Shown here: positions 23,799-33,147 of the stretch, one piece after another
Position numbering within the stretch: position 1 is the stretch's first letter
Layout: each line of letters starts with the position of its first letter
Origin: Bullifex porci
GTDB lineage: Bacteria > Spirochaetota > Spirochaetia > Sphaerochaetales > Sphaerochaetaceae
Length of the DNA: 64,000 bases
NCBI RefSeq assembly: GCF_009695635.1
Contig: NZ_VUNN01000001.1
Coordinates: 186,001-250,000 of the forward strand
Reading direction: 5' to 3'
Program-made: the position numbers and the translations under genes
Notes under the pieces: generated by a model
Seen by the model: the letters and a program-made list of their open reading frames with translations, nothing else
The model's database searches: none
What the model was told of the DNA's origin: nothing

Positions 23799-25409
23799 AT
23801 GATTGATGAAGAGTATAATAAGATACTAAAACAATATCATAAGGTTTCAGAGAGGCATATTTTAGCCGTTGAAAGTGATATGCCTTATTCTGATATACTT
23901 CAAGTTGTAACTCTTTCAGATAAAATACGAAAAGCAGGAAACGAACTTGTAGCTCTTATGAGAAAGAATTATGAGCAACTTCTACGTACAAAGAGATACC
24001 GCAAGCTACTTGTTTTGTATGGTAACACCGGAGATAAAAATAAACGTAAGGATTTAGCTAATCAGCTTAGCGAAATGCAGAAAGACTATAATGTCACATG
24101 GGATTATTGTAGAAAATCCATGATTCCAATAGGTAAAAAATATGGAATAGATGCTGTTTTTGCCTTAACTAAAGCTGAGGATATTTGGGGAGGTGTAGAG
24201 AAATGCTTGTATGGGAGAGGAGCAACAATTCACTTCTCTAAATACGGAGAACTGCCTTGCATCAGATCAAAACAGATAAATCGTGGTATACCAATGTCTG
24301 TAAAGGAAGAGCAGCTACAATTCAAACTTGGTAAGATTAATTTTGGAATAAAGGTAGTTGATAGATTTCAACGAGATGAGGTTAATGCAATTGTGTCCTA
24401 CCTTGCTGAATCTGAAAGCATAGATAGAAAAGCGGTTAATACTTTCAAGGAAGATGGCCGTTGCATAGACACATACAGGCCATGTTATGCAACGCTTGTA
24501 CCTAAAATAATAAGAGGCAAATACAGGGTATATTTACACCTGGCCATTGAAGGTAAGTCAAAACCAAAATACAACAGGGATGGCAGTCTCCGACATAAGT
24601 ATGGTAAAGGTATTATAGGTGCTGATATTGGTACACAGACTGTTGCGTATACATCTAATACAGAGGTAGGCTTGAAAAATCTTTCAGAGCGTGGCAATAG
24701 TATTCAAACATCAGAGAGGAAAGAACGACTACTCCATCGTGCGATGGATAGGTCAAGACGAGCTACTAATCCTCAAAACTATAACGATGATGGTAGTATT
24801 AAAAAAGGTCGTAAGGATTGGAAATATTCAAATCATTACAAAAAGCTGAAAGACAAATATTATGAATTATGTCGAATCAATGCAGTAAATAGACAACTTG
24901 CAATAAACGAGGATGCAAATCATTTACGTAGTTTAGCTAATACATTTGTAACTGAAGAGAAAAATGCAAGCAAGCTCATGAAGCGAGCTAAAGAAACCAC
25001 AAAAAATGAAAAAGGTAAATTCAATAAGAAAAAGAGATTTGGCAAAACAATAAAGAACAGGTGTCCTTCTAAATTTCAGACCACTGTACAAAAGAAATTT
25101 GAAGTGACAGGCGGTACATATATCGAGGTTTCTAATAATTATAGAGCATCACAATATGACCATACTGCGGATGATTATATCAAGAAGAAGCTATCTGATA
25201 GATTGTATAAACTTCGTAGTGGTACCGAGGTGCAGAGAGATTGGTATTCATCATTCTTACTCTATTGTTACGATTATAGAACAAACAGCATAGACAAAAA
25301 TAAATGCAATATGGAGTTTGGAAGATTCTACAATATGGAGAAAAAACTAATAGAAAGGATTAAGGTTAATAAGATTAAAGTATTGAATAGTGGAATTAAA
25401 ATAGGTTAA
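23799..25409 (+). CDS. tnpB: TnpB-like RNA-guided nuclease homologue (no zinc ribbon)
   Basis: A 536-residue member of the OrfB/TnpB group. GADIGTQTVAY (about residue 275) is the RuvC-I Asp; EVQRDWYSSFLL near residue 475 occupies the place of the DRDVNAA RuvC-III Asp. The Cys4 zinc ribbon that normally precedes the third motif is absent, replaced by a segment reading SQYDHTADDYIKKKLSDRL. A similar Cys-less type is common in clostridial genomes. The middle RuvC Glu is not obvious to me. AGGAAGGA precedes the ATG. The codon and base use match the host, so this element is older or better adapted than the GC-rich one at 36 kb. Activity is uncertain. Confidence 0.75.
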   Translation: MIDEEYNKILKQYHKVSERHILAVESDMPYSDILQVVTLSDKIRKAGNELVALMRKNYEQLLRTKRYRKLLVLYGNTGDKNKRKDLANQLSEMQKDYNVTWDYCRKSMIPIGKKYGIDAVFALTKAEDIWGGVEKCLYGRGATIHFSKYGELPCIRSKQINRGIPMSVKEEQLQFKLGKINFGIKVVDRFQRDEVNAIVSYLAESESIDRKAVNTFKEDGRCIDTYRPCYATLVPKIIRGKYRVYLHLAIEGKSKPKYNRDGSLRHKYGKGIIGADIGTQTVAYTSNTEVGLKNLSERGNSIQTSERKERLLHRAMDRSRRATNPQNYNDDGSIKKGRKDWKYSNHYKKLKDKYYELCRINAVNRQLAINEDANHLRSLANTFVTEEKNASKLMKRAKETTKNEKGKFNKKKRFGKTIKNRCPSKFQTTVQKKFEVTGGTYIEVSNNYRASQYDHTADDYIKKKLSDRLYKLRSGTEVQRDWYSSFLLYCYDYRTNSIDKNKCNMEFGRFYNMEKKLIERIKVNKIKVLNSGIKIG

Positions 25410-26345: not shown

Positions 26346-27605
26346 GAAGGATTTAAAAAGCTTTAAAAGTGCGGTGGTATCTTTAGTTCCACCACACTCA
26401 TATGGTGAGTGCATTGCTAGTTGTGCAACTCCGATATCACAGGTAGGAATACTAATTTTTTGAATAGATAGGTTTCCTAGTGTAGAACCACCTAGCTGAT
26501 CTGAATTATTTACAAATACTTGATAAGGTATATTATTCTTTTGGAGCAATGCTTTAAGGTATGCTCCTGTTGCTGCATCTGTAGTATATTTCTGATTTGC
26601 AGAGTATTTTATTAATATACCATTATTTAGCTTTGGTAGGTTTGTTACATCGCTTTTATCTGAGTAATTTGGATGAACACCATGTCCGTTATCTGCACTA
26701 ATCATAAATGAAGATGCGATATTTATATATTTTTCATCCTCATTAAGATGTAAAGCAAACATTATTCTTTCCATAATAGAAGTTAAGAAATCAGAGAGAG
26801 CACCTTGTCTTGTTCCACTTCCGACCTCTTCATTATCAAATAATGAGATAATAGCAATTCTATCACTTGGCTTACTATCTAATATTGCTTTAAATGCAGA
26901 ATAAGCACATTGTAAATCATCTATCTTTGGTGAAGAGAAGAATTCATTGTTTAAGCCCCAAATAGTAGGTTCACTCATGTTATATAGGAATAAATCCCAA
27001 TCTAAAAGCTCTTCTGACTTACAATTAGCTTCCTTAGCAATAAGATCTGTAAAGGCTTTCTTATCATTACCTTGTGTAAAGATTGGAAGTAATTCCTTTT
27101 GAACTGAGTATTTTATTCCATCATTAGCTGTTCTATTTTGATGAATAGCTAAGTTAACTATTGATAATAGTGGTCTTGGAATATTGATTAGTTTTTCCTC
27201 AATTGAACCATTATTGTTAATAAATACTCTACCAGCTACAGATAGTGGGCGATCAAACCATGGAGAAAGAAGCATTCCACCATATTTTTCAATATTTAAT
27301 TTAATATAGCCATTAGCCTCTATCTCTGGGTTCGGTTTTATTTTAAAGGTTGGACTATCTGTATGTGCAGATATTACAGAGAAACCTTTAAAGCTTTCTG
27401 GGATTGTAAAAGCAATAAGAGAAGATGAGTTACGAGTAATGAAGTATGAAGAGCCCTTTTCTATATTAAATGGTTTTGTTTCTATTAGTTCCTTAAAGCC
27501 TGCTTTAATAAGCTCTCTTTTCATATTAGAAACAACATGAAAAGGGGAGGGACTATTTTTAATAAATTCTAATAATTCCTTAGTATCTTGAATGTAGTTT
27601 TCCAT
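26334..27605 (-). CDS. M18 family aminopeptidase
   Basis: Cytoplasmic two-zinc aminopeptidase of the M18 (ApeB/aspartyl aminopeptidase) family, 423 aa. It starts with NSPSPFHVVSNM. Metal and catalytic motifs are ISAHTDSPTFKIKP, FSSPKIDDLQCAY, SLFDNEEVGSGTRQGA with the Glu pair, and AMHSPYECGGTKD with the C-terminal His. WFDRPLSVAGRV is the usual neighbour of the first metal site. The ATG follows GAGG by six bases. Monocistronic. Confidence 0.93.
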   Translation of the reverse strand: MENYIQDTKELLEFIKNSPSPFHVVSNMKRELIKAGFKELIETKPFNIEKGSSYFITRNSSSLIAFTIPESFKGFSVISAHTDSPTFKIKPNPEIEANGYIKLNIEKYGGMLLSPWFDRPLSVAGRVFINNNGSIEEKLINIPRPLLSIVNLAIHQNRTANDGIKYSVQKELLPIFTQGNDKKAFTDLIAKEANCKSEELLDWDLFLYNMSEPTIWGLNNEFFSSPKIDDLQCAYSAFKAILDSKPSDRIAIISLFDNEEVGSGTRQGALSDFLTSIMERIMFALHLNEDEKYINIASSFMISADNGHGVHPNYSDKSDVTNLPKLNNGILIKYSANQKYTTDAATGAYLKALLQKNNIPYQVFVNNSDQLGGSTLGNLSIQKISIPTCDIGVAQLAMHSPYECGGTKDTTALLKLFKSFLAL

Positions 27606-27662
27606 ATTATACCTCTGAAGAGGAATGATAAGTCAAAATTAAAGAGTGGACAATACAAAAAA

Positions 27663-27684
27663 AAGACCTCATTTCTGAGGTCTT
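27663..27684 (-). terminator. terminator of tRNA-Thr
   Basis: Stem AAGACCTCA/TGAGGTCTT with a GAAA loop on the minus strand, followed by eight T. It begins at the base after the tRNA 3' end. Confidence 0.9.
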
Positions 27685-27757
27685 AGCCGACTGTCGGATT
27701 TGAACCAACGACCGGCTGATTACAAATCAGCTGCTCTGCCAGCTGAGCTAAGTCGGC
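27685..27757 (-). tRNA. tRNA-Thr (anticodon TGT)
   Basis: Acceptor arms GCCGACT and AGTCGGC pair, the D arm has AGCTCAGCTGGCAGAGC, and the T arm has GGTTCAAATCC. The seven-base anticodon loop TTTGTAA gives TGT. The discriminator base is T and CCA is not encoded. Confidence 0.95.
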
Positions 27758-27780
27758 ACTTGTTCAACTGAACAATCGAG

Positions 27781-27809
27781 ATACTACCTGTAATCAAAAA
27801 TAATTGCAA
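27781..27809 (-). promoter_or_regulatory. promoter of tRNA-Thr
   Basis: On the minus strand TTGCAA (27804-27809), 17 bp, TAGTAT (27781-27786). The start would fall near 27774, at the first bases of the hairpin TTGTTCA-AC-TGAACAA (27760-27775) that fills the short tRNA leader. Confidence 0.7.
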
Positions 27810-27961
27810 CTACTTTTTCAAAAAAATTTTCAAAAAATTTTCATAATTAATTTAATTTCTTATATAATCAAATAATATACTCAAAAAAAATTTTTGAATT
27901 TGAGCTTGATATAAATAATACTTAAATGATATTCTCCCTTTTAGTTAAATTTAAAGATTAT

Positions 27962-27990
27962 TTGACATAGGGTCTTGGTTTGTGTATTAT
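27962..27990 (+). promoter_or_regulatory. consensus promoter of the small basic protein gene
   Basis: TTGACA (27962-27967), 17 bp, TATTAT (27985-27990). It is one of the two exact TTGACA -35 boxes noted here (the other serves tRNA-Asn), indicating high expression. The stretch between the tRNA-Thr promoter and this point (27810-27961) is very AT-rich and holds nothing else I can see. Confidence 0.8.
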
Positions 27991-28024
27991 ATGCAAGACA
28001 TGTCATTTACGGAGGAATAATAAA

Positions 28025-28195
28025 ATGGCCGGTAATGTTTCTAAGAACGCTCACCGTGAAGGTGCTAAGGTATTACTCAGCAGATGGGGTGGTGAAATTA
28101 AGATGAAGAGTGTATTCGAAAATGGTAAGCTTCGCCACTACGCTGTATGTGAAAAATCTGGTAATACAGCTCGTAAAGCAAAAGATCTTATGTAA
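28025..28195 (+). CDS. highly expressed small basic protein, unknown
   Basis: Fifty-six residues starting MAGNVSKNAHREG and ending TARKAKDLM. It is rich in Lys and Arg, with one Trp, one Cys and no signal or membrane helix, so a nucleic-acid-binding or ribosome-associated role is plausible. GGAGG lies about nine bases before the ATG, a consensus promoter is upstream and a strong terminator follows. It uses AAC, CAC, TAC, TTC and CGT codons more than most neighbours, as expected of an abundant protein. I compared it mentally with bL28, bL32, bL33, bS20 and bS21 and it fits none. Confidence 0.8.
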   Translation: MAGNVSKNAHREGAKVLLSRWGGEIKMKSVFENGKLRHYAVCEKSGNTARKAKDLM

Positions 28196-28221
28196 TTTTT
28201 TTGCAATATGAAATTTTTCAG

Positions 28222-28248
28222 CCTGTCGAGACGTCGACAGGTTTTTTT
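28222..28248 (+). terminator. terminator of the small basic protein gene
   Basis: Perfect eight-base stem CCTGTCGA/TCGACAGG, loop GACG, then seven T. Confidence 0.92.
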
Positions 28249-28375
28249 GTATCAAAAATTTTCTAATTTTTAATATTTTTTTCGTATCTTAATTTGACTC
28301 TTCGTGTTATATTGTAACAGAGAACATTTTCTTAAAACAAAAATAAACAATCGTTCGTTGTTAGGAGGAAGACAC

Positions 28376-30832
28376 GTGAATCGTTTTACTAAAACACTGT
28401 CAACTTTAGTTCTTGTCGTTATGGTTGCCCTCTCTCTTATCGGTTGTCAGAGTACATCTGCTCCAGTAGAGGTTACACCTGAAATTGTAGTTCCAGAAGC
28501 TGTACCAGTAGCTGAAGTTCCTGTAGTTGAGGAACCAGCACCAGTAGTAGCTCCAGAACCAGAACCAGAACCAGAACCAACAGTTGAAGAACAGCCTGTT
28601 TATGGATCAGTTTCTGTTTATGGCTATCCTATTTCTTATAAAGTTGTAACAGGTCAGGCTACAATTAGCTATCCTTCATTCGTTACAGATGAAGAAGTAG
28701 TTGATTTCTTAAGCTATTTTGCTGACAAGTATGGTGCTTTAGTTCAAGGTACTGTATTCGAAATTGCTGCACCAGGTACTGTAAATGTTTATTTCGATAA
28801 GGCTGCATCATATGCTGATATCGAGACAGTTGGTGGTTTAGCATTAGATACTCTCTTTGAATATGTTAACCAGTTATTTGCTGCTCCAGCAGTAGAAGAA
28901 GCTCCAGTTGTTGAAGAACCAGCACCTGTAGTTGAAGAGCCAGCTCCAGTTGAAACAAAATATTCAGGTTCAGTTTCTGTATTTGGATATCCTGTTCGCT
29001 ATGAAGCTCAGCTCGGTAAGGTATTCATTGATTACCCAAGCTTTATTACTGATGAAGATGCAACATCATTCTTTGCTTTTATTGCTAACAGATATAGCGC
29101 ATATGCTAATTTAGTTACATACAAGCTTACTGGTGATTCAAGTGTTGAATTTTATTTCTCAAAGGATGCTTCTTTTGATGATCTTTTAGCAGTTGCTAGC
29201 ATGCTCGCTGGTGATTTAGTTGACTATGTAACTGGCTTATTTGCTGCTCCAGCTGTTGAAGAACCAGCTCCTGTAGTTGAAGAGCCTGTAGCAGAAGAAC
29301 CAGCAGTTGTTGAGGAACCAGAGGTTGTATATCCATATGGCGTTAAGGCAATTGTAAAGAATGCTCAGGGTGATACAGAATTTGACCTCTTTGTAGTTCA
29401 TACAAATGACGTTCATGCTAGAATTGTTCCAGCTGATGGTGGTATGGGTTATGCTAAGCTTGCTACATTAGTAAAAGCAGGTAAGGCTATTACAGATAAC
29501 ATCCTCGTACTTGATGCTGGTGACGTTACACACGGAACTAACTTAGCTAATATGTTCAAGGGCCAGACAGTTGGTGAGATCCTTGCAATGATTGGTTATG
29601 ATGCAGTAGCTCCAGGTAACCATGACTTCAACTATGGTGCAGAGAACCTTAAAGAGCTTGCTAAGCTTTCTGAAGCAATTGGCGGACCAAAAGTTCTTTC
29701 TGCAAACATCCTTACTGAAGATGGTTACAATGTATTCCAGCCATATCAGATTTATGACTTCAATGGATTCAAGGTTTGTGTATTCGGTCTCACAACACCT
29801 GATACAAAGACTAAGGCTCATCCAAAGTATACAGAAGGCTTAACATTCTGGTCTGATGAAGTACTTGCAGCAGCTCAGTATGCAGTTGATTTAGCTAATG
29901 AATATTGTGATTACGTAATCGTACTTGGTCACTTCGGTCTTGATGAAGATGGTTCAAGTGGTATCACAAGTAAGTATGTATGTGAAAACATCAAGGGTAT
30001 CGACCTCTTTGTTGATGGTCACAGCCACACAACTCTTCCAGAAGGACTTAAGGTTGGTGATACATTAATCGTACAGGCTGGTGAGTACCTTAAGAATGTT
30101 GGTCTCGTACAGATCCATGTAAAGGATGGTAAGGTAACAGCTACATATCCAATGCTCATTACAGCAGCTGATGTTCTTGACCCTGCTAATAGTGACTTAG
30201 CTAAGTCATTTGGTATTACAGAAGTTCCAGATGATCCTGAAGTTTCAGCTTATATTGCTAAGGCACAGGATCAGCTCAACGACATCCTCAATGTTGTAAT
30301 TGCTGAAGTTCCTGTTAACCTTGATGGTGAAAGAGCTAATGTAAGAACAAAGCAGACTAACCTTTCTAAGCTTGTTTGTCAGGCAATGACAGATGAGACA
30401 GGTGCTGACTTCACAATCACTAACGGTGGTGGTATCAGAGCATCTATCAAGGCTGGTAAGGTAACTCTCGGTGATGTAAACAATGTACTCCCATTCACAA
30501 ATACAATTGCTGTATGTGAAATCACAGGTGCACAGGTTTACGAAGCTCTCGAGTTCGGTTACAGAATGCTCCCAGAGACAAATGGTGGATTTACTCAGAC
30601 AGACCTTAAGGTTGTATACTCTAAGTTCAGCCCAGCAGGTTCAAGAATTAAGAGAGTAGTTCTTCCTAATGGTGAAGTTATCGACAAGAATAAGACATAC
30701 TTAGTTGCTACAAATGACTTCTTAGCAGCTGGTGGTGACGGATTTACAATGTTCGGTAAGATCGTACAGTTAGGTAGACAGCTTAATGAAGTATTTGCTG
30801 ATTATCTCGCAAAGGTATATCCAGTTAAGTAA
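28376..30832 (+). CDS. lipoprotein: duplicated novel domain plus 5'-nucleotidase
   Basis: GTG start eight bases after AGGAGG; 818 aa. Lipobox LIGC with Cys24. Residues 30-74 are a Pro/Glu/Val linker. Residues 75-170 and 196-291 are two copies of a domain that starts YGSVSVYGYPISY and ends near LFAAP, joined by VVEEPAPVVEEP-type linkers. Residues about 336-818 are a UshA-like metallophosphoesterase plus C-terminal nucleotidase domain: VVHTNDVHAR (metal His/Asp), LDAGDVTHGTN, APGNHDFNYG, LGHFGLDEDG, DGHSHT, and TNGGGIRASI. It probably releases phosphate from nucleotides outside the inner membrane. I do not recognise the duplicated domain. C-ending codons suggest strong expression. Confidence 0.88.
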   Translation: MNRFTKTLSTLVLVVMVALSLIGCQSTSAPVEVTPEIVVPEAVPVAEVPVVEEPAPVVAPEPEPEPEPTVEEQPVYGSVSVYGYPISYKVVTGQATISYPSFVTDEEVVDFLSYFADKYGALVQGTVFEIAAPGTVNVYFDKAASYADIETVGGLALDTLFEYVNQLFAAPAVEEAPVVEEPAPVVEEPAPVETKYSGSVSVFGYPVRYEAQLGKVFIDYPSFITDEDATSFFAFIANRYSAYANLVTYKLTGDSSVEFYFSKDASFDDLLAVASMLAGDLVDYVTGLFAAPAVEEPAPVVEEPVAEEPAVVEEPEVVYPYGVKAIVKNAQGDTEFDLFVVHTNDVHARIVPADGGMGYAKLATLVKAGKAITDNILVLDAGDVTHGTNLANMFKGQTVGEILAMIGYDAVAPGNHDFNYGAENLKELAKLSEAIGGPKVLSANILTEDGYNVFQPYQIYDFNGFKVCVFGLTTPDTKTKAHPKYTEGLTFWSDEVLAAAQYAVDLANEYCDYVIVLGHFGLDEDGSSGITSKYVCENIKGIDLFVDGHSHTTLPEGLKVGDTLIVQAGEYLKNVGLVQIHVKDGKVTATYPMLITAADVLDPANSDLAKSFGITEVPDDPEVSAYIAKAQDQLNDILNVVIAEVPVNLDGERANVRTKQTNLSKLVCQAMTDETGADFTITNGGGIRASIKAGKVTLGDVNNVLPFTNTIAVCEITGAQVYEALEFGYRMLPETNGGFTQTDLKVVYSKFSPAGSRIKRVVLPNGEVIDKNKTYLVATNDFLAAGGDGFTMFGKIVQLGRQLNEVFADYLAKVYPVK

Positions 30833-31344: not shown

Positions 31345-33147
31345 ATGAAAAAACTATTATTGCTAACTTTATCTTTGATCTTGCTATTTTCATGTGCAAG
31401 TGTTGAAATGGGGCCTACAAGCCATTCGATTGCTGTTCTTTCAACAACAGATATGCACGGAAGAGCTGCAAGTAAAGATGTTGCAACAGGTAAGGAAGAT
31501 ATCAATTCAATGCCAAGAGTTGCTACAGCTGTAGAAGCTGTTAGAGAAAGCTTTGGTGATAGCATGCTTGTCATCGATAATGGTGATACAATTCAGGGCA
31601 ATCTATTAGCTCAATATGCTATTAACTTTAAGATTGATGTTATTAACCCAATGGTTAGTGCTATGGCATATATCGGTTATGACGTTTGGACTATGGGTAA
31701 CCATGAATTTAACTTCCTTCCAAATCAAAGAGATACTCAAGTACTTTTTGCTGAAAAAGAAGGTATTAGCTGCTTAAGTGGAAATGTTACTCTTCTTGAG
31801 GATGGTTTAAATGTACATGGTGACAAGGCTAAGGCAGGGGATCCATTCTATCAGCCATATGAAATCTTTACATTTAAATTTGATGATGGTTTAAAGGCAA
31901 AGGTTGCAGTAATTGGTCTTGGTAATGCTGCAAATGCTAACTGGGATTTAGCAACTAACTATCCTAACTTATCTTTCTCTTCATTAGAAAATAAAGATGG
32001 AATTCTTGCAAATGAAATTGATAAGTGGGTTAATGTTGTAAGAAATAAAGAAAAAGCTGATATCGTAATTGTTGCTGTACACAGTGGACTTGGAAGTGCT
32101 GATAGTTTTAGCTTAGAAAGTCAGACATTAATGGCTGCACAAGCAACTAGTGGTGTTGATTTGATTATTTGTGGTCATGATCACCAAGCAAATATTACAA
32201 TTACTAAGAACAGTGTAGGAGAGGATGTCACAATCGTAAATGGTGGTGGAAAGGCTCTTACAGAGAGTATTTTAACTATTGATTTTGAGAAGGGTAAGGT
32301 TACAGGTCTTAGTATTGAATCATCACTTACATCTCTTGATAGTGTTACTCCAGATGAAACTCTTAGCCAGATGATGGATGAGTGGTACAACGAAACATAT
32401 CAGTGGGCAAGTGCTCCAATTGGTAGCTTTGATAATGGTTGGAATAATTTTAAAGCTGAAGCAGAAGGAAAGAGTAATAATGATATGATTCTTTCACAAA
32501 CTGCTTTAATGGATTTCATCCATAAGGCTCAGATTTGGTGTACATGGCAGAGTGAAGGTGTTGAAGGTGCAACAGTTTCATTTGCTTCTCCTGTATTCGG
32601 TACAAATGCTAATAAGGAATTAAGCTTTGTTCCAGCTGATGGTGATACAATTTCAACACTTGAGCTTTCTAAGCTCTATAGATATTCTAACAACCTTTTA
32701 TGTGCAGTAGAGCTTACAGGTCAAGAGCTTTATAATTGGATGAATTGCGTTGCTAATATGTATAGTATTAAGGATGGAAAGGTTTCAATGGGAGAAGGTG
32801 TATCAATTTATGGTCTTGATACATTCTACGGTGTTGATTATGAAATTGATCCATCTAAGGAAAATGACTCAAAGCTTGTTAAGGCAGAGATTAATGGAGT
32901 TGATGTAAGAGAGATTAGCTCTGTTAAGGTTGCTTTAAATTCCTATAGACTCTCTGGTGGTTATGGCTTTGCTGAAGCAACAGGTAAGAGTGAATCAGAT
33001 TGCTTCTGGACAGCTAGCCAGTACTTAGGCTCTGATAGAGCTCCTGTGCCAACACAGATTGGTGAATATGTAAAGGCTATGGGTGTTGTTTCTCCAAGCG
33101 ATAAAGTATCACATGGATATGATTCAACATGGAGTATTATTGAGTAA
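31345..33147 (+). CDS. lipoprotein bifunctional metallophosphatase / 5'-nucleotidase (UshA-CpdB family)
   Basis: A 600-residue lipoprotein (MKKLLLLTLSLILLFSCAS, Cys17). The N-terminal metallophosphoesterase domain has LSTTDMHGRA, VIDNGDTIQGN, TMGNHEFNF, VAVHSGLG and ICGHDHQ. The C-terminal nucleotidase substrate domain contains FASPVFGTNANKELSF, LYRYSNNLLCAVELTGQEL and a Tyr/Phe-rich end. This order matches periplasmic 2',3'-cyclic-nucleotide phosphodiesterase/3'-nucleotidases (CpdB) more than UshA, so scavenging of RNA breakdown products is likely. AAGGAG precedes the ATG. It is separated from the nucleotidase at 28376 only by tRNA-Asn, giving two outward-facing nucleotidases in a row. Confidence 0.9.
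   Translation: MKKLLLLTLSLILLFSCASVEMGPTSHSIAVLSTTDMHGRAASKDVATGKEDINSMPRVATAVEAVRESFGDSMLVIDNGDTIQGNLLAQYAINFKIDVINPMVSAMAYIGYDVWTMGNHEFNFLPNQRDTQVLFAEKEGISCLSGNVTLLEDGLNVHGDKAKAGDPFYQPYEIFTFKFDDGLKAKVAVIGLGNAANANWDLATNYPNLSFSSLENKDGILANEIDKWVNVVRNKEKADIVIVAVHSGLGSADSFSLESQTLMAAQATSGVDLIICGHDHQANITITKNSVGEDVTIVNGGGKALTESILTIDFEKGKVTGLSIESSLTSLDSVTPDETLSQMMDEWYNETYQWASAPIGSFDNGWNNFKAEAEGKSNNDMILSQTALMDFIHKAQIWCTWQSEGVEGATVSFASPVFGTNANKELSFVPADGDTISTLELSKLYRYSNNLLCAVELTGQELYNWMNCVANMYSIKDGKVSMGEGVSIYGLDTFYGVDYEIDPSKENDSKLVKAEINGVDVREISSVKVALNSYRLSGGYGFAEATGKSESDCFWTASQYLGSDRAPVPTQIGEYVKAMGVVSPSDKVSHGYDSTWSIIE

Follow-up and report, generated by a model that had tools for sequence, protein, structure and literature searches.

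Identification of the gene as bL38

A 64 kb stretch of the Bullifex porci genome (64,000 nucleotides, hereafter the window) contains a short gene whose product was described in an initial annotation as a very strongly expressed basic protein of 56 residues, of unknown family and matching no ribosomal protein. The question raised by this locus is which protein the gene encodes and where in the cell that protein belongs. The ORF runs from an ATG at 28025 to a TAA stop at 28193-28195, and the product (6.2 kDa, computed pI 10.1) is indeed small and basic. The features of the locus are:

27685..27757, minus strand: tRNA-Thr(TGT), divergent upstream neighbour (ARAGORN, Rfam tRNA), also a neighbour in near relatives
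27962..27990, plus strand: sigma-70-type promoter TTGACA-17-TATTAT, 11/12 consensus match
28011..28015, plus strand: Shine-Dalgarno GGAGG, 9 nt 5′ of the ATG, with GGAGG in all relatives inspected
28025..28195, plus strand: bL38 gene (C- form), 56 aa, by phmmer, profile, Foldseek and VIA matches to 8fmw_Ai
28079..28087, plus strand: codons S19-R20-W21, where the C+ form has its first cysteine pair (CxC) in alignments
28148..28150, plus strand: codon C42, a cysteine common to both forms (C in 122/122 sequences, phage copies included)
28220..28243, plus strand: intrinsic terminator, 10-pair stem and T run, with a terminator-like hairpin 3′ of the gene in relatives too

Both the sequence search and the structure search proposed in the initial annotation led to a single protein, the ribosomal protein bL38 of Borrelia burgdorferi (BB0162, chain 8fmw_Ai, PDB 8fmw/8fn2). 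The window protein matched it in phmmer at 5.7e-16 over 45 residues, and a 31-sequence profile run against PDB sequences found bL38 at 1.3e-21; apart from bL38, just one chain scored E ≤ 10, an L28 at 0.84. An AlphaFold2 model of moderate confidence, built on a shallow alignment (mean pLDDT 70.1, pTM 0.42), has the fold of the Borrelia-type bL38 (beta-hairpin, small third strand and short helix). With this model, 8fmw_Ai was the sole Foldseek match under 1e-3 (5.1e-5, TM 0.70/0.84) and the best VIA match (Z 6.2, rmsd 3.1, 46 aligned); the RPB9 zinc ribbon, which appeared in VIA rows below it at Z about 3, was too weak to count beyond a hint. The annotation had itself said that clear similarity to a known ribosomal protein would refute its reading, and such similarity is what these searches returned.

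The published contact residues of the B. burgdorferi protein, K34, K36, R49, K50 and R52, align with K35, R37, R50, K51 and K53 of the window protein. These five rRNA-contact positions are mostly basic among relatives (122 sequences); 30 of them have S, T or N at position 53, so that the contact at 53 is dispensable. The protein matched no Pfam or NCBIfam family at E ≤ 10 and no PADLOC or PHROGs profile at E ≤ 1. Among the 31 members of the profile alignment, the commonest NCBIfam match was bL31 (6/31, best 0.00055); the matches of these members were weak, generic zinc-finger ones and were not taken as homology.

Compared with BB0162 (O51184; structures reported in PMC10618245), the window protein is homologous over residues 11-55, with the SRWGG...ARK core, and has the same basic contact residues and the same predicted hairpin and short helix. 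It differs in an N-terminus that is one residue longer by numbering. Hence, the gene almost certainly encodes bL38, a small structural 50S protein and the ortholog of BB0162, expressed from a strong monocistronic unit of its own. Homology, fold match and contact residues are direct observations here, as are the distribution and the two forms described below, and residence in the B. porci ribosome would follow from the homology. In this sense, the gene is an unexceptional, well-supported ortholog of a recently found ribosomal protein, and a 56-residue gene without a name is settled as part of the ribosome.

Predicted place and role in the ribosome

B. burgdorferi bL38 was described in 2023 as the large-subunit protein BB0162; it was first seen as an unexplained density and then assigned by mass spectrometry (PMC10618245). 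According to the same paper, it is present in the 70S ribosome, appears as a stable component in the 50S map, and contacts H95 with the sarcin-ricin loop, H97, uL6 and uL14. By homology, the window protein would sit on the 23S helices H95 (the sarcin-ricin loop stem) and H97, against uL6 and uL14, where it would be held by the basic spine of K35, R37, R50, K51 and K53. Such a seat suggests that bL38 probably stabilises the site, and it may tune the GTPase factors that dock at the sarcin-ricin loop, an effect put forward as a suggestion in PMC10618245. In the main text of that paper, cysteine and Treponema go unmentioned, and zinc appears solely in the title of a reference.

A protein of Flavobacterium johnsoniae, also named bL38, has a similar place in the 50S subunit but is shifted by 14 Å, has a different internal structure and gave no match in a translated search (PMC10618245, in the text consulted). 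No Flavobacterium bL38 chain was matched at E ≤ 10 by the 31-sequence profile among all PDB sequences, and the name bL38 may cover two proteins, a Borrelia type and a Flavobacterium type. Outside PMC10618245, we found no work on the BB0162-type bL38 in the literature covered, which was judged by titles and consisted of main texts, mostly outside subscription journals.

Signals and predicted expression

The promoter, GGAGG and terminator named in the initial annotation are all present, the promoter consisting of TTGACA at 27962-27967, a 17-nt spacer and TATTAT at 27985-27990. Two promoters at one mismatch occur in the 64 kb window against 1.41 expected, and a single match of this quality is not significant alone; it counts as significant because it is conserved upstream of the genes of relatives. 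The upstream set comprised 80 regions (79 relatives and the window, one relative without sequence being dropped), which were reduced to 66 non-redundant regions by the removal of near-duplicates. A promoter matching at least 10 of 12 consensus positions was found in 49 of these 66, compared to a mean of 1.85 and a maximum of 5 in 200 shuffles. Likewise, a terminator-like hairpin was found in 74/81 downstream regions, near-duplicates kept, versus 2.3 in shuffles.

Codon usage was compared with that of 21 S10/spc-operon genes of the same genome, which served as the CAI reference. The bL38 gene has a CAI of 0.790, within the range of these 21 genes (0.656-0.819, median 0.742), and the value is reached by two of the 54 window ORFs of at least 150 aa (median 0.576) and by 0.6% of 5000 synonymous recodings of the gene. 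The translationally favoured codons noted in the annotation are thus borne out, and since ribosomal-protein-like codons come together with a conserved promoter and terminator, strong expression is a sound prediction for this gene.

The gene lies outside any ribosomal operon in the B. porci genome. A separate promoter and terminator away from the ribosomal-protein genes would also suit a bL38 homologue working off the ribosome, for instance an accessory factor in translation or stress that attaches to subunits only when they are free or stalled. Such a role could likewise draw on the phage-borne copies described below and on the tendency of viruses to encode ribosomal proteins of the exchangeable sort (PMC6375957, in the text consulted). 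The presence of the B. burgdorferi protein in 70S ribosomes and in the 50S map, and its near-universal, mostly single-copy occurrence in the class, make this very improbable, and we retain the reading of the gene as a structural 50S protein.

Distribution in spirochaetes

A single-sequence search matched 207/392 genomes of the phylum, all of them in the class of the window. With the profile, bL38 was found in 213/214 genomes of this class (E ≤ 6.1e-20). The one genome missing, G138, is assembled in 220 contigs, and its profile matches (best 0.044) all fall within longer ORFs. Across 178 genomes belonging to the other classes of the phylum, the profile search gave no match below 0.001, with weak matches (E 0.003-0.08) in nine. 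In a contig scan with window-derived patterns, the best 80 of 131 matches all came from spirochaete lineages. Within the phylum, bL38 is restricted to this class. First published from a single Lyme spirochaete, the protein is a marker of the class as a whole, although neither Pfam nor NCBIfam has a model for it.

The gene is nearly always single: nine genomes with several matches were rechecked, and a second strong copy was found only in G206 and G347. The two copies in G206 are of unlike score (E 1.3e-28 and 1.4e-26), and those in G347 have similar scores.

Two forms of bL38

We compared 96 bL38 sequences from 21 families, taken from genomes of the class. Ten families, including those of the window and Borrelia, have SRWGG or SKWGG and one cysteine (the C- form), and eleven have CxCGG or CxxCGG, followed in most members by CxxC (the C+ form); four-cysteine C+ loci include L119, L122, L123, L126-L130, L136 and L138. 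The two cysteine pairs of zinc-ribbon ribosomal proteins are absent from the window protein, which has C42 only. Judging from its cysteine pattern, the C+ form is probably a zinc ribbon and would bind zinc, and in the C- form of the window, packing presumably replaces the metal around the one cysteine left. Four of the 96 sequences are degraded and of C+ type, and lie outside the C- clan: L121 (G349) has lost the first cysteine pair, L125 and L208 (G331 and G355) are identical and keep C42 only, and L217 (G375) has one cysteine replaced by histidine.

This pattern resembles that of the C+/C- proteins L28, L31, L32, L33, L36, S4, S14 and S18 (PMC3087516, in the text consulted), which also have cysteine-paired and cysteine-poor forms, interleaved among lineages and usually one per genome; one of the eight, S4, moved horizontally. 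bL38, which is absent from the C+/C- list given there, differs by its class restriction and by a zinc site read from the cysteine pattern. No report of a C+ bL38 was found in the main texts covered, most of them outside subscription journals.

In the bL38 tree, which rests on few columns, the C- sequences form one side of a branch (support 100/99), and with the metal-site residues masked, the C- clan is still recovered at 100/97. Such a clan could mean that C- arose once, with neither replacement nor transfer, and that the RpoB tree misplaces the families. RpoB is a single marker with weakly resolved deep branches, so that replacement, paralogue sorting and transfer are indistinguishable and a single C- origin is possible. 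However, an AU test on RpoB rejected the C- hosts as one clade (p 0.00023), the RpoB mixture-model tree needs six C+/C- changes, at least four of which are forced by well-supported branches, and the C- genes stand at unrelated genomic places. We consider a single origin to be a real possibility, though an unlikely one.

Neighbourhood of the two forms

The gene for bS20 adjoins bL38 in 26 of 56 loci scanned, many of which span only 1.5 kb per side (20 downstream on the same strand and 6 divergent). All 26 are among the 43 C+ or degraded loci, versus none of the 13 C- loci; in two loci, bS20 lies about 1.1 kb from bL38. In two C- loci (L113 and L114), bL28 lies 220 nt downstream of bL38. Pfam searches on the seed neighbours confirmed S20, HU and L28.

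An HU-family gene lies two genes from the C+ bL38 in many loci. The initial annotation had proposed a lineage-specific component of either the ribosome or the nucleoid, and a small, basic protein with high predicted expression and an HU gene nearby might be an HU-like or other nucleic-acid-binding protein. Yet this neighbour comes with bS20 in between, neither Pfam nor NCBIfam gave any family at E ≤ 10, Bac_DNA_binding or similar included, and the protein clearly matches one seen inside the 50S subunit, which leaves a nucleoid protein with a negligible chance. The guess of a lineage-specific ribosome component was right, because the protein matches the 50S protein bL38, and the restriction to the class (213/214 genomes) agrees with it; its nucleoid half is without support.

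Phage-borne copies

Scans of IMG/VR identified eight contigs, of 306, 147, 71, 54, 37, 28, 26 and 21 kb, that carry a C- bL38 (loci L251/L256, L253/L257, L255/L258, L264/L265, L269 and L272). Those of 71, 37 and 21 kb have one identical bL38, and the eight contigs therefore hold six distinct phage proteins. Virion genes are present on at least five of the eight. The profile of the T4-type major head protein, phrog_138, matches four (306, 147, 54 and 26 kb; weakly, at 1.2e-8, on the 306 kb contig), whereas 14 bacterial and archaeal genomes used as controls gave no match. On the 71 kb contig, a tail tube protein adjoins bL38, with UvsX, a helicase, SSB and SbcCD nearby; the 54 kb contig has a terminase, and the terminase profile phrog_2 matched only one of the eight phage records. 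On the 28 kb contig, none of the hallmark genes tested was found. The window protein itself had no match (E 0.01) among the 50,697 deposited phages of INPHARED, and none among plasmids.

In three of the eight contigs, bL38 lies inside dense tRNA clusters, with 18 (306 kb), 11 (147 kb) and 18 (28 kb contig) tRNA genes in 6.2 kb. In the bL38 tree, all phage copies group on the side of the C- sequences (100/99), their branching order being unsettled. The five contact positions are all still basic in five of the six distinct proteins, L269 having N at 53. The hosts would be spirochaetes, because bL38 is restricted to the class. Phages are known to encode other small ribosomal proteins, including bS21, bL12, bL9, bL31 and bL33 (PMC6375957, where incorporation of phage bS21 and bL12 into 70S ribosomes was assayed in E. 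coli); bL38 is not named in the main text of that paper, and the three copies within tRNA clusters set it apart. Nor is it named in PMC13157829, in the text consulted, and in our literature search (main texts, mostly outside subscription journals) no report of phage bL38 copies was found.

The bL38 family itself is already known; its class-wide distribution, the two forms and the phage copies are new here, and the interest lies with the family, which spans the class yet has no Pfam or NCBIfam model, includes a probable zinc form and is carried by phages. Speculatively, and with more doubt than confidence in the scheme as a whole, bL38 could be a ninth C+/C- ribosomal protein, whose zinc-ribbon form, encoded beside bS20, gave way on several occasions to a horizontally travelling zinc-free form. 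Tailed spirochaete phages of up to about 306 kb, carrying the zinc-free form among tRNA genes, might place it in the ribosomes of their hosts, next to the sarcin-ricin loop, remodel translation during infection, and have helped to spread it between spirochaete families. If true, the pair of zinc-free and zinc-ribbon forms, together with copies that phages bring to the sarcin-ricin loop site, would open ribosome takeover and zinc economy in spirochaetes to testing.

Surroundings of the gene in the window

The window bL38 stands alone, with an M18 aminopeptidase gene and the tRNA-Thr upstream and a 5′-nucleotidase lipoprotein gene downstream. A search of 27500-28500 with Rfam gave only the tRNA at gathering score, and two sub-threshold sRNA matches overlap this tRNA. 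In 15/51 relatives scanned for tRNAs (L001-L012, L015, L036 and L052), a tRNA-Thr(TGT) gene is found immediately upstream of bL38, in either orientation; this neighbour may be connected with the tRNA clusters in which phage copies lie. The 5′-nucleotidase lipoprotein gene (28376-30832) has the highest CAI of the 54 window ORFs (0.824), and another gene of this kind is located at 31345-33147, the two being separated by a tRNA-Asn. A 536-aa ORF at 23799-25409 resembles by eye what we take to be a TnpB/IS605-type protein (RuvC-like IGADIGTQTVAY).
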